Assembly: GCA_943789005.1 (NCBI GenBank)
Contig: CALSSL010000002.1
Coordinates: forward strand, 252,532 to 316,531
DNA: 64,000 nucleotides
Direction: 5' to 3'
From: an uncultured SAR86 cluster bacterium
Lineage (GTDB): Bacteria > Pseudomonadota > Gammaproteobacteria > Magnimaribacterales > D2472
Shown in pieces: positions 54,886 to 64,000 of this stretch. The notes below the pieces were generated by a model. It was given only the letters and a program-made list of their open reading frames with translations, was not told the origin of the DNA and did no database searches. The stretch's first letter is position 1. The number at the start of each line of letters is the position of its first letter. The position numbers and the translations under genes were made by a program.

Positions 54886-57159
54886 TTAATTAGTATTCGA
54901 CAAACTTTCAATTGCAGCTGCAGAAAAAGCCAAATCAGACAAAATTTGTGTAACAGGCAATAAAGCTTCTAAGCCAGGATTATTAGTAATAATTTTTCTT
55001 GGAACCACAATAGTATCACCAGGTTCAAGGCCAACATTTCTAACAAAAATATTTCTATTAGCTTTTTTAACGATTCCATTTGCCTTGATCACATATACCC
55101 TTCTTTTATCCGCATATTGTTGGTACCCACCAGCTTGATTTATTGCAGAGGTAATAGTTAATTTTTTTGAGTATTCGAATGCTATTGGATTTAAAACCTC
55201 TCCGAGTACATTTACAGCATTTGGATTTTTAGGAACAATAATCGTATCTCCATCAAATAAAATTGTATTAATTGAGCCTTGTGATTTTGGAGTAAAGTCT
55301 CCTGCCAGTCTCCCTAAATTTTCTGGTTCTATACTTTCTGAAAGTGCTCTTATTAAATTAATATCACCAATATTTTCTCCTTTTTGGACAGAAGTTAAAA
55401 TTACCTTATTGAGATCTTCTTTAGATTTTTCTATAGACTTAATCTGCCTTGCTCTTATATTGTCTCTAGTCAAGATAATTCCTTTAAGATAAGCTTGATT
55501 TTTAAAATTACCAACTAATTGATATAAGTCCTCTATGGTAGCGTCATCATTTAAAACATAAGTTCCTGGAAAGTCCACAGCACCACTAATAGATACCTCA
55601 ATAAGATCATTATCAAAAGATCTAAAATTAACAGTATTATATTTTTCTGCTATATATTGCATATTTTTATAATTATCATTAACTACAATATTCTTCAGCG
55701 GACTAACATAAGTAGCAATATTATCTACGTCACTCATGTCTAAACCCAATAAATTTATAAATGAGCTAACAGAATATTTTCCGTATACTGGCAATCTGAA
55801 ATTGCCCTGTCTATGAGATAGCCTTAATTCATATTCTGTTATTAGCTTTCTTGACGTTTCAGAGACATCAAATGATCTTGTATCAATATTTGCAAAATAA
55901 ATTCTAGAATTGGGTAAAAGCTCTACAGAGGTATAGGTGTTTGGATCATTTAAATTAAATAAAACTGTAGATTTGATTAGCTTATTTTCGTCAAATTGCT
56001 CTAATACAGCCAACCAAGGATATACATCAATAAATTTTAAATCATTTATTAAATCAGTTAACTTTCTATACTTTAGAGCATTATAAAAACCCGGCTCCTC
56101 TATTGCTCCTTGAACGAGAATGTTAGCGCTTGGTTCGTTTACATAATTAAAAACATTTACTGATAATGCGTTTTGTAGGTTTTGATCTAGAGTATCAACA
56201 TTTTTCTTAACTATTGATGCTTCATTTAAATCCAAAAATGATACAGATATATTAGATTTATTTGCGGTTTGGTTAAAGCCAAGAGCAAAATCTACCAAAC
56301 TATTAATAGTTTCACCTTCTAAGACTTCATATATTCCAGGTCGCTTTACAGCACCGGTTATTTCAACAAACTGAGATGCTGCGTTTATTAATAAAGTATC
56401 GCCTGCCTCAATAGTAAGATCATTAGATCTATTACCTTTGATAAGTAAATCGTATAAATCAAAAGAAAAGACCTCTTTATTATTTCTTATTAACTTAATA
56501 TCTCTCAAGGATCCTATTTCAGAAATACCCCCAGAGTATGCAAGTGCTCCAGTAATGGTGCTAAAGGGGTTAACTAAATATGTTCCTGGAGTATTTACCG
56601 CACCAACAATAGTTATCTTTTTGGCGCTTAAATTTTGTAATGAAACATCAATATTTACCCCAATGTAAGCTTGTTTAATTAATTGCGATAGTTTCTCTTT
56701 AACCTCTTTAAAACTAAGGCCGACAACAGAAACAGAACCAAGTTCAGGAAACAAAATTGTGCCATCCAGCTTAACATTTAAATTAAATAAGGCATCTTTC
56801 GAACCTGTTAAAATAACTGTAAATTGATCTCTTAAAGATATTATATAGTCATTAGGAAGTGGTAAGTCTCCAACCGCTGTGAGAGAGGTAGGCATTGATG
56901 AAAAAAAATCATAACCATATTTCTTACCTGCAATTTTATTTGAATCACCGCTAGATTTTTTAATTACTAATGACTCATCAATCACTGGTAGTTCTTCAAC
57001 TGACTTATCGGTAGAATTCTTGCTTGCATAAGCATCTTTTGCCATTTCAATTTGCTCAGGACTAAGCTGAGACAGGATTGATGGGTCTATAGCTTGTCCA
57101 AAAGAATAAAATGGAAATAAAGATAAAGCCAAAAGAAGATATTTTTTGTAATGTTCCAT
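54886..57159 (-). CDS. SLBB-domain polysaccharide export protein (Wza-like)
   Basis: LPNDYIISLRDQFTVILTGS; multiple SLBB units (VEITGAVKRPGIYEVLEGETINSLVDFA; VSISGAVDFPGTYVLNDDATIEDLYQL; VNVLGEVLNPIAFEYSKKLTI). Confidence 0.87.
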   Translation of the reverse strand: MEHYKKYLLLALSLFPFYSFGQAIDPSILSQLSPEQIEMAKDAYASKNSTDKSVEELPVIDESLVIKKSSGDSNKIAGKKYGYDFFSSMPTSLTAVGDLPLPNDYIISLRDQFTVILTGSKDALFNLNVKLDGTILFPELGSVSVVGLSFKEVKEKLSQLIKQAYIGVNIDVSLQNLSAKKITIVGAVNTPGTYLVNPFSTITGALAYSGGISEIGSLRDIKLIRNNKEVFSFDLYDLLIKGNRSNDLTIEAGDTLLINAASQFVEITGAVKRPGIYEVLEGETINSLVDFALGFNQTANKSNISVSFLDLNEASIVKKNVDTLDQNLQNALSVNVFNYVNEPSANILVQGAIEEPGFYNALKYRKLTDLINDLKFIDVYPWLAVLEQFDENKLIKSTVLFNLNDPNTYTSVELLPNSRIYFANIDTRSFDVSETSRKLITEYELRLSHRQGNFRLPVYGKYSVSSFINLLGLDMSDVDNIATYVSPLKNIVVNDNYKNMQYIAEKYNTVNFRSFDNDLIEVSISGAVDFPGTYVLNDDATIEDLYQLVGNFKNQAYLKGIILTRDNIRARQIKSIEKSKEDLNKVILTSVQKGENIGDINLIRALSESIEPENLGRLAGDFTPKSQGSINTILFDGDTIIVPKNPNAVNVLGEVLNPIAFEYSKKLTITSAINQAGGYQQYADKRRVYVIKANGIVKKANRNIFVRNVGLEPGDTIVVPRKIITNNPGLEALLPVTQILSDLAFSAAAIESLSNTN

Positions 57160-61085: not shown

Positions 61086-61690
61086 TTATGGCTGAAGAAA
61101 TGAATGCTTCCAGACACCATCAATTTTTTCAAAAACTTCTCTTTTATTTATTCTTGATTCATGCCCTTCCCAGAATTCAAAATAGTAAGGAGTAAATGAA
61201 TAACCTCCCCAATATTCAGGACATTTTTTTAAATCATCATTTTTTAAAGATTTATTATAATTTTCTTTAACTTGGTTATAAGAATCTATTGGCTTTGATT
61301 GGTTGGATGAAATAGCTAATGCATTTTTTTCTTCTGATCTATCAAAAAAATATTTTTGATTAAATTCATCTGAAGTTTTTTTTATTTTAGCCTTCATTCT
61401 AATCTGAACATTAATACTAGGCCAATATACTAATGCAGCTATTTGGTTGTGAGAATTAAAAGCAGATGCTTTTGGAGAGTTATAATTACTAAAAAAAATA
61501 AACTCATCATTTGAAATAAATTTAAGATTTACGTATCTAGAATCAACCTCACTTATCTCCTTGTTGTAAGAAGAAATTGAAATAGCCTCAATGCCTTTTT
61601 GACCTGCATCTAAAGCCTCATCATATTTCTCTTTTAAAAGTTGATAAGGTATTTCTTGATTTAAGTTATTAAATTGATCATTGTATTAAA
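61086..61690 (-). CDS. pdxH: Pyridoxamine 5'-phosphate oxidase family protein (5' end unclear)
   Basis: The frame is open upstream of the listed Met: DEALDAGQKGIEAISISSYNKEISEVDSRYVNLKFISNDEFIFFSNYNSPKASAFNSHNQIAALVYWPSINVQIRMKAKIKKTSDEF; PEYWGGYSFTPYYFEFWEGHESRINKRE. Confidence 0.82.
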
Positions 61691-61756: not shown

Positions 61757-61779
61757 AAAAGCTGCATAATGCAGCTTTT
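61757..61779 (-). terminator. Candidate intrinsic terminator (10-bp stem, 3-nt loop)
   Basis: AAAAGCTGCA-TAA-TGCAGCTTTT followed on the minus strand by a run of seven T's (an A-run on +). Confidence 0.65.
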
Positions 61780-61864
61780 CATATCTATTTATTTTTTTAA
61801 AAGTTGATAAGCTTATTTATCGCACGCCATGATTTGGATTGGTTGGCTTCGTTTTGTTACTTTT

Positions 61865-63012
61865 TTAATCTAGCCCTGCCGAACCGCTCTGGATAACCGA
61901 GCGATGCCATTGCGCTGGTAACGTATCAGTTTGTGGGTGTCCGCAGAGCGACGGGATACCGGCCCACCCTTGCGCCGCTCCTGCCTTTGCATGCTCGGCA
62001 AAAAAAGCTGCCATCTCTCGCACATCTTGGGGCTCACTGCCCGACGGACTGAGAAGCTCTCTAAAGATGGGGTTCGAAGCCTTCACATTCGCATCACGCA
62101 AAAACTCATCAACCGGCTCGGGGCTGGTGTAGGTATCGTAATAGGCATCCATCACCCGTCGATAATTAAGAAGTCCCGAGGCAATATCGGCACAGGCAAA
62201 GGCAGAGAACCCCTCCTCCGCGATTAGATCGACAAGCGCCCTGTACTCAGACGATGACTCAAAGTCGGGGGCACTATTTAGGCCATGCTTGCGGGAATTT
62301 TGGCTGCTGGCCCGCTTCCCAGCCACCGATCTCGGGCCCGTTGATTTAAGTGCATTGCACTGATTTGCAAGGTTCCTACGATGGTTTGCGTCAAGCGAGC
62401 GAACCCCCTTCACAGACTGCTTTGACTCAAGTGCTGCCAGCTCAAGATCCATACGCTTAATCAGGCGTGACTTATAGTCTATGGAGTCGATACTCCGCTG
62501 AAGATGCCTCATCGTTTGGTGCTGACGGTGAATCAGATCATCCACCATCTTGATATGCCTGGCCGCATCCTTAAAGGCCCTAACACGGAGATCGGATAGG
62601 GTCAGCTTCGACTCGGCGAGGATTTCATCAATCCATGCCGCTTCATCCTTGTCCGCGCTGCCATCCAAATAACGCTCAAGGGCCTCTGACACCTTACGGT
62701 TGTCATAAGTCTCCAGTTGCTACCCGCCTTAGACAAAAGCCTCGCCATCGCCTCATGGAGCAGTAGCTCCTTATCCACGGTGTGCCTCCTAATCCACCAG
62801 AGGCACTCATTCAGCTGACTGACCAGCGCAACCGCCAAGGGTGAGGGATTGTCTAGTTCGGATAAGAGACTTTGCAAACCAGATTGAAACTCAGCCTCAG
62901 ATTCATTGGGCAAAAGCTTGGGGCTTGATAGGAAGGGTAAAAGAGACTTGGATTTATCTTCAACAGGCATAGCAACATCCACATAAATACCGAAGTGGAT
63001 ATTATAAAGCAT
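61865..63012 (-). CDS. Uncharacterised protein with STGPRxxxGKxxSxxNxxKHGL motif (frameshift near 62715)
   Basis: N-terminal ORF ...EAMARLLSKAGSN joins the second frame QLETYDNRKVSEALERYLDG...; motif RRNLANQCNALKSTGPRSVAGKRASSQNSRKHGLNS. Confidence 0.7.
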
Positions 63013-63038
63013 AAGCTAAAAGATAAAGCAGATAGAAC

Positions 63039-63281
63039 TTAGTCGTCGCGCTTGATACGTAGGGTCACGCCTGGGTTAACCAATGGATCGCCGGTGAATT
63101 CAATACCGGCCTGCTTCTAAAGTATTTCTTATCACCATTAAATTCTTGTATTAGCATCAGGGATACCCGCTGCACCTCATAGCGCTTAATCGTAGCCTAC
63201 CAACACCACTGCGGTTTGCAAGCTCAATCGCGCTCCAACCTAACATGCACGCGCAGCCTTTATTTGAGCAGAAGATACCAT
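63039..63281 (-). CDS. XRE-family HTH transcriptional regulator, reconstructed across several indels
   Basis: Pieces in three frames: MVSSAQIKAARA / MLGWSAIELANRSGVG / ATIKRYEVQ / GIPDANTRI / MVIRNTLEA / AGIEFTGDPLVNPGVTLRIKRDD*. Confidence 0.7.
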
Positions 63282-63293
63282 TGACTCTACTTT

Positions 63294-63312
63294 ATGATTC
63301 TATTAGAATCAT
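63294..63312. promoter_or_regulatory. Perfect 9-bp inverted repeat (1-nt centre) between divergent regulator and recombinase; candidate operator
   Basis: ATGATTCTA-T-TAGAATCAT, 12 bp upstream of the regulator ATG and 27 bp upstream of the recombinase ATG. Confidence 0.65.
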
Positions 63313-63339
63313 TTAATGTTATTTTATAGAGAGAATAAC

Positions 63340-64000
63340 ATGATTGATGATATCTTAGCCAAGTTTGATGGCGCCTTTGCCAAAAATACCATAAGAGCCT
63401 ATAGGTCGGACTTTATTCAATACCAGACCTGGTGCTCACACAATAATATTGATTCAATACCGGCAACTGCCGACGCCATGGCGCAGTATGTTGACTACCT
63501 TGCCACCATCAGAAAAAGCGCGACCATCCGCAGAAGAATCAATAGCTTGGGCACGGTACTAAAACTCTCCAAACACTACAACCCCACCAACCAGCCAGAG
63601 GTCATATTGGCCATAAAACGAATGCACCGCAAAATTGGACGGGCACAGCAGCAGGCTACTCCACTCACCAAACCACTACTCAACCAGCTACTTAGCAACT
63701 GCGATAACAGTCTCAGGGGTTTAAGAAATCAAGTCCTCCTAAGACTCGGCTACGAAACCATGCGCCGCCGGTCAGAGCTCTGCGCCTTTAAGTTTGAGGA
63801 CATCTGCAAGGGAGCCAACGGAAAACCGGCTATCCGGCTTAACTTCTCAAAGACAGACCAATTCGGGACTGGAAAGATACTACCAATCAGCCAAGAACTG
63901 TTCGACTTATTAGAAAAATGGAGGAGTATGATCAGCGATGAAGGCTATATTCTGAGATCAATTAATAGGCATGGGCATTTTGGGAACAACCTACACCCAG
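63340..64000 (+). CDS. Tyrosine recombinase / phage-type integrase (3' end beyond window)
   Basis: Core-binding domain NTIRAYRSDFIQYQTWCSHN; box I LLRLGYETMRRRSELCAFKFEDI; frame open to window end. Confidence 0.88.
   Translation, partial: MIDDILAKFDGAFAKNTIRAYRSDFIQYQTWCSHNNIDSIPATADAMAQYVDYLATIRKSATIRRRINSLGTVLKLSKHYNPTNQPEVILAIKRMHRKIGRAQQQATPLTKPLLNQLLSNCDNSLRGLRNQVLLRLGYETMRRRSELCAFKFEDICKGANGKPAIRLNFSKTDQFGTGKILPISQELFDLLEKWRSMISDEGYILRSINRHGHFGNNLHP

Follow-up and report, generated by a model that had tools for sequence, protein, structure and literature searches.

A tyrosine recombinase module at the edge of an apparent O-antigen island in an uncultured SAR86 cluster bacterium points to a possible system dedicated to exchanging surface-sugar genes

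What kind of DNA ends this contig of an uncultured SAR86 cluster bacterium, and what might its recombinase do there? The window analysed here is a stretch of 64,000 nucleotides (G000:C2:252532-316531) whose right end is the end of the 316,531-bp contig C2. A GC scan of the window showed that the last 2.18 kb of this contig are foreign in composition: GC is 0.28-0.33, the host level, up to 61.0 kb, then 0.517 at 62-63 kb and 0.451 at 63-64 kb, with the switch from about 31% to about 48% GC falling at window position 61,821. Homology to two relatives, G003 and G027, stops at this same nucleotide; in other relatives it stops earlier. An earlier, sequence-only reading had reported an abrupt change of composition at about 61.83 kb, just right of a hairpin, and the scan, the end of homology and the position of the hairpin (Table 1) all agree with it. 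We propose that the tail is probably the right-hand end of a horizontally acquired O-antigen island, and that the site-specific recombination module it carries is specialised for loci of surface polysaccharides.

The junction and the genes beyond it

On the host side of the junction the PdxH-like gene adjoins infC-rpmI-rplT-pheS-pheT, and the stretch at this gene is 72-90% identical in DNA to relatives. On the foreign side we found a predicted tyrosine recombinase running rightward, and an XRE-type regulator and a protein with an STGPR motif running leftward; the perfect palindrome between regulator and recombinase has a counterpart in the int/XRE gap of G259 (8-bp arms, 1-nt gap), a gammaproteobacterial MAG unrelated to the window host (isolate HF-Dia14, record JABXHR010000238.1). 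This is the arrangement that the sequence-only reading described, now backed by Pfam, PHROG and the G259 homologues.

Table 1. Features at the host/foreign junction and in the module (window positions; a dot marks features without strand)
Feature	Position	Strand	Basis or remark
PdxH-like gene, C-terminal part	61086..61397	-	Pfam PNP_phzG_C 8.4e-11; frame broken further upstream
Host intrinsic-terminator hairpin AGCTGCATAATGCAGCT	~61760..61776	.	Read from sequence; kept in relatives
Candidate core site GATAA-GCTTAT-TTATC at host/foreign junction	61806..61821	.	Host homology ends at 61821
Conserved element-end block TTCGTTTTGTTACTTTTTT	61848..61866	.	Common to G259, partly G027; compared by eye
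HypB (STGPR) part of accessory protein, motif ANQCNALKSTGPRSVAGKRASSQNSRKHGL	61865..62395	-	ORF and G259 match
HypA part of accessory protein, frame break ~62690-62720	62395..63012	-	G259 match
XRE-type regulator gene, several frame breaks	~63039..63281	-	Reading frames; intact homologue L064:2063-2305
Palindrome ATGATTCTA-T-TAGAATCAT in the XRE/integrase gap	63294..63312	.	Perfect 9-bp arms, 1-nt gap
Tyrosine recombinase, N-terminal 220 aa, cut by contig end	63340..64000	+	ORF opens 63316

The recombinase is hit by Pfam Phage_integrase (2.5e-5), a SAM-like N-domain (1.5e-4) and a PHROG integrase (3.6e-18), and it belongs to an Xer-like family (XerD model, 2.5e-11). The R and K regions of its catalytic core lie in the window, the HxxR motif (GHSFR) is seen only in a G027 fragment and in G259, and the position of the C-terminal Tyr falls beyond the contig end. 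The regulator was recognised through its intact G259 homologue, which carries HTH_3 (Pfam, 4.1e-7). The STGPR protein is split over two frames (61865-62692, with an N-terminal piece at 62602-63012), and the two have their matches in one and the same pair of genes in G259. Its HypB part is fused to HypA in the window; G259 and Rhodobacterales encode HypB on its own, in a gene that overlaps HypA. The HypA part aligns with one G259 protein at 49% identity over 73 aa and 35% over 60 aa, and HypA is weakly conserved; HypB proteins have in common the N-terminal motif (STGPR..)GK..SSQNARRHGL. Predicted structures of HypA (all helical, pLDDT 73, pTM 0.41) and HypB (pLDDT 46) were too poor for a fold search. 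The STGPR protein had been put forward as cargo, a reading that is not supported; with HypA it appears to belong to the accessory module of the recombinase.

ORF integrity falls over the last 4 kb of the window and, because this drop also covers the host genes there, at least some of the frame breaks probably reflect inaccurate sequence near the end of the contig instead of decay.

Two relatives bear on the join itself. The host part of the 4-kb contig G027:C86 is 87% identical to the window and has the same host junction; about 150 bp past the junction it has a fragment that is 88% identical to window 63937-64000, and there the recombinase continues with GHSFR. G027 is assigned to a different genus of the family and, being only 4 kb long, its contig may have been mis-binned; even so, the same join occurs in a second, separate sequence. 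In G003 a 40%-GC block with polysaccharide genes begins at the same nucleotide as the window junction, and no recombinase was found there.

In the mechanism that we envisage, the XRE repressor would sit on the palindrome, its likely operator, and keep the recombinase off. HypA and HypB would serve as DNA-binding or directionality partners of the recombinase, which would exchange strands at the GATAA-N6-TTATC core site; polysaccharide blocks beyond its 3' end would thereby be mobile, that is, inserted, replaced or exchanged.

The far boundary and the candidate site

At least 12 relatives have a single contig on which a variable stretch of about 15-39 kb lies between a Wzz gene and the pdxH-infC-pheST block. 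In G000 the Wzz gene lies at the right end of contig C1; the order there is host wzz, a GATAA-N6-TTATC site (GATAAAGGCTCTTATC), then a UDP-glucose/GDP-mannose dehydrogenase gene of 46% GC, and homology to the relative G006 ends 20 bp before the site. Since the wzz side and the pdxH side both border foreign DNA, C1 and C2 appear to face each other across an unassembled foreign island. To judge from these sequences, the window tail is the right-hand edge of a foreign insert in the O-antigen locus of the species (wzz ... pdxH), and its cargo is probably O-antigen or other polysaccharide genes in the unassembled interior, which lies 3' of the recombinase and past the end of the contig.

This island has an integrase at one end and a break in composition at both, as integrative islands do. 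Identical direct att repeats were not found at its ends, which have the same GATAA/TTATC arms around different 6-bp centres. The 2.2 kb seen contain no relaxase or conjugation genes and no phage genes, and tblastn with the integrase hit only three phage records, all below 60% identity. The idea of an integrative element thus holds for the foreign DNA and for the recombinase facing its regulator; a free-standing, self-transmissible element has no support here, as conjugation genes, phage genes and a matched attL/attR pair were not found in these sequences. A tRNA-targeted island was rejected, as the boundary loci scanned (the window side and relatives) are without a tRNA gene.

At the other end of C2, the contig starts of C2 (L004:1-872) and C3 (L122:1-874) overlap head to head over 872 bp at 98.4%, so these two contigs can be joined. 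Adjoining pheT, a 757-aa protein is encoded at window 54886-57159 (minus strand), with repeated motifs that resemble a polysaccharide-export (SLBB/Wza-type) protein; a further export gene of the O-antigen locus may therefore lie on this flank.

The 16-bp inverted-repeat site GATAA-N6-TTATC is present at both island boundaries and at the module edge in G259, where it lies between a Wzy-type gene and the STGPR gene. Its choice as a candidate came from the window junction and G259, and the checks at C1 and in distant homologues are independent of that choice. First, at the C1 boundary its chance of occurrence is about 3e-4 for a 60-bp stretch. Second, it lies 119-293 bp upstream of seven of 26 integrase homologues (25-34% identity), where 0.03 were expected; the Poisson value overstates the evidence because some of the seven are closely related (the -178 position or a clade is common to four of them). 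In this same set GATAA/TTATC ranks first among all 5-mer arms with a 6-bp centre, with seven occurrences, the next having two.

A genome-wide array of this site was rejected on account of its chance-level frequency across the genomes of 81 relatives, and it is not supported as a general feature of the Rhodobacterales loci described below, where its occurrence is inconsistent. A host dif at the junction was likewise rejected; a dif-like site lies at G000:C3:32261. The centres at the two island boundaries differ (AGGCTC versus ATAAGC in the same reading direction), so they do not form a simple attL/attR pair; such differing centres would be expected if the island had arisen in more than one event, and equally if the site had another role.

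Recurrence beside polysaccharide genes

The sequence-only reading had called for these three genes to be sought as a conserved neighbourhood in other genomes, and the int/XRE/STGPR layout does recur, in G259 and on Rhodobacterales plasmids. In G259, int runs rightward and XRE, HypA and HypB run leftward (HypA and HypB overlapping) beside a Wzy-type O-antigen ligase gene; a second, broken integrase of the same kind lies beside a NeuB/NeuC/DegT cluster. Between this nonulosonate cluster and the broken integrase we also noted an MNT/HEPN-like pair and a Doc-like gene (L099:8453-9588).

On the Rhodobacterales plasmids, XRE is divergent from int in all 13 loci read, HypA-HypB are present in eight of them, and surface-polysaccharide genes are adjoining or near in 13 of 13. 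Among six more distant integrases on other plasmids, taken as controls, none has polysaccharide genes nearby. The Fisher value for this comparison, 3.7e-5, is a guide only, as it ignores kinship: the 13 loci include close pairs, and the six controls are few and not matched for host.

Most of the recombinase homologues found sit on plasmids, and a search for more distant relatives in genome contigs returned G259 alone. An integrase remnant seen by eye in G017 was dropped when tblastn gave it no support, and STGPR matches in G287 and G448 were taken as chance, their frames having several stops and no integrase ORF being seen.

The recombinase tree groups the window protein with that of G259 as sisters (100/99), distinct from host XerC and XerD, inside a larger supported clade (100/96) together with the Rhodobacterales proteins and plasmid integrases that have no polysaccharide neighbours. 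The latter integrases branch between this pair and the Rhodobacterales clade, which is thus not its nearest relative, and the association with polysaccharide genes is therefore either old and lost in those integrases or arose more than once.

Related plasmids were also compared for the point at which their similarity stops. In four comparisons between plasmids with different cargo (three Pseudosulfitobacter pseudonitzschiae plasmids, and Sulfitobacter indolifex against S. faviae OXR-9), DNA similarity ends 0-12 bp past the int stop codon, and the genes beyond are different: pseudaminate, dTDP-rhamnose or other glycosyltransferase sets. In one of the plasmid pairs the left flank is 97-98% identical whereas int is 75% identical, which argues that the module was exchanged there together with its cargo. 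This end of similarity at the int stop is not universal, since Roseivivax and some Sulfitobacter pairs (OXR-159, faviae 1866, DSM 110093) continue to share sequence past int.

A literature search that had most subscription journals outside it found no description of an int/XRE/HypA/HypB module. We tentatively put forward these four genes as an undescribed platform of Alpha- and Gammaproteobacteria, specialised for the site-specific exchange of whole polysaccharide clusters with cargo 3' of the integrase.

Alternative readings and known systems

A possible objection, which we consider rather unlikely to hold, is that a decayed ordinary island integrase is a mere passenger in a hypervariable O-antigen locus whose exchange proceeds by homologous recombination in the flanks. 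The frame breaks of the window copy fit a passenger, as do the fragment of the recombinase that is all G027 keeps, the G003 polysaccharide DNA at the same junction where no recombinase was found, and the mismatched spacers at the island boundaries. So does the published view of O-chain replacement islands of aquatic bacteria, which favours their exchange by homologous recombination in the flanks and notes that mobile elements have little prominence there (Lopez-Perez et al. 2014, PMC4033161). A passenger would not, however, be expected to recur as the same gene set, with intact frames, beside polysaccharide loci in another class, nor to have its boundary site common to the island and the recombinase loci. 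The locus resembles those replacement flexible genomic islands in that one genomic place holds different surface-polysaccharide clusters across lineages, and differs from them (PMC4033161) in having a recombinase module and a candidate core site at its boundary.

It is quite improbable that the module is a plasmid or replicon-resolution system, consisting of an Xer-like resolvase and its site, that was picked up along with a polysaccharide cluster carried on a plasmid. The abundance of plasmid homologues points that way, as does the site upstream of distant integrases, often at -178, the place of a resolution site, with arms that resemble the inner arms of dif; yet in the window genome and G259 the sites lie at the edges of an island or module, the content of the contigs there is of a chromosomal type, and the host dif is elsewhere.

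Very improbable, and rejected here, is an assembly or binning artefact that attached unrelated DNA to the contig end: the foreign tail does coincide exactly with the end of the contig, where ORF integrity is low, and it differs in GC, and the module is absent from 60 sampled relatives, but the chimera that the sequence-only reading had named as its own undoing is made unlikely by the same junction and a recombinase piece in the independent G027 contig, and by C1, the other side of the same locus, with matching foreign DNA and the same type of site, so that the join looks real and not an obvious chimera.

The reading that we prefer, a recombination module dedicated to polysaccharide loci, has likenesses among known systems. 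Xer sites such as dif have inverted arms ATAA ... TTAT around a 6-bp centre, and the GATAA-N6-TTATC site, with its similar arms and 6-bp centre, accompanies an Xer-like recombinase; unlike dif-exploiting elements (IMEX), this element encodes its own recombinase, and the host dif is separate, on C3. Integrons pair an integrase and its neighbouring site with an array of variable genes. The module similarly has an integrase with a nearby site and variable genes alongside, but its cargo lies 3' of the integrase and is made up of entire polysaccharide clusters.

Few genes of aquatic bacteria vary as much as those of the O-antigen and capsule clusters, which determine the phages that can infect. With a recurring recombinase module and a candidate site, site-specific cluster replacement becomes testable in cultivable Sulfitobacter, Pseudosulfitobacter and Roseivivax.

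Tycheposons, as described in PMC10872708, have tRNA borders. The window island is like them a cargo island of a streamlined marine bacterium with a tyrosine recombinase at its edge, and unlike them it is without a boundary tRNA and has polysaccharide cargo; the XRE/HypA/HypB partners do not figure in that description.

The plasmid loci have further features. In L163, L169, L170, L171 and L180, HypA-HypB are missing and a hypothetical protein and an 'HGGxSTG domain' protein (NALKHGL) are encoded near XRE-int, perhaps as an alternative accessory pair. A Sulfitobacter OXR-159 plasmid (L172:669-2618) has a second XRE/HypA/HypB-like set, with no adjacent integrase, beside VanZ and CcdAB. A phage terminase small subunit is annotated after int in four loci (L167:4199-4783, L172:9927-10511, L173:7922-8512 and L174:7926-8468), and nothing else in its vicinity is annotated as a phage gene. 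L169-L175 and L179 repeatedly have toxin-antitoxin pairs (CcdAB, VapBC) at the module's far side.
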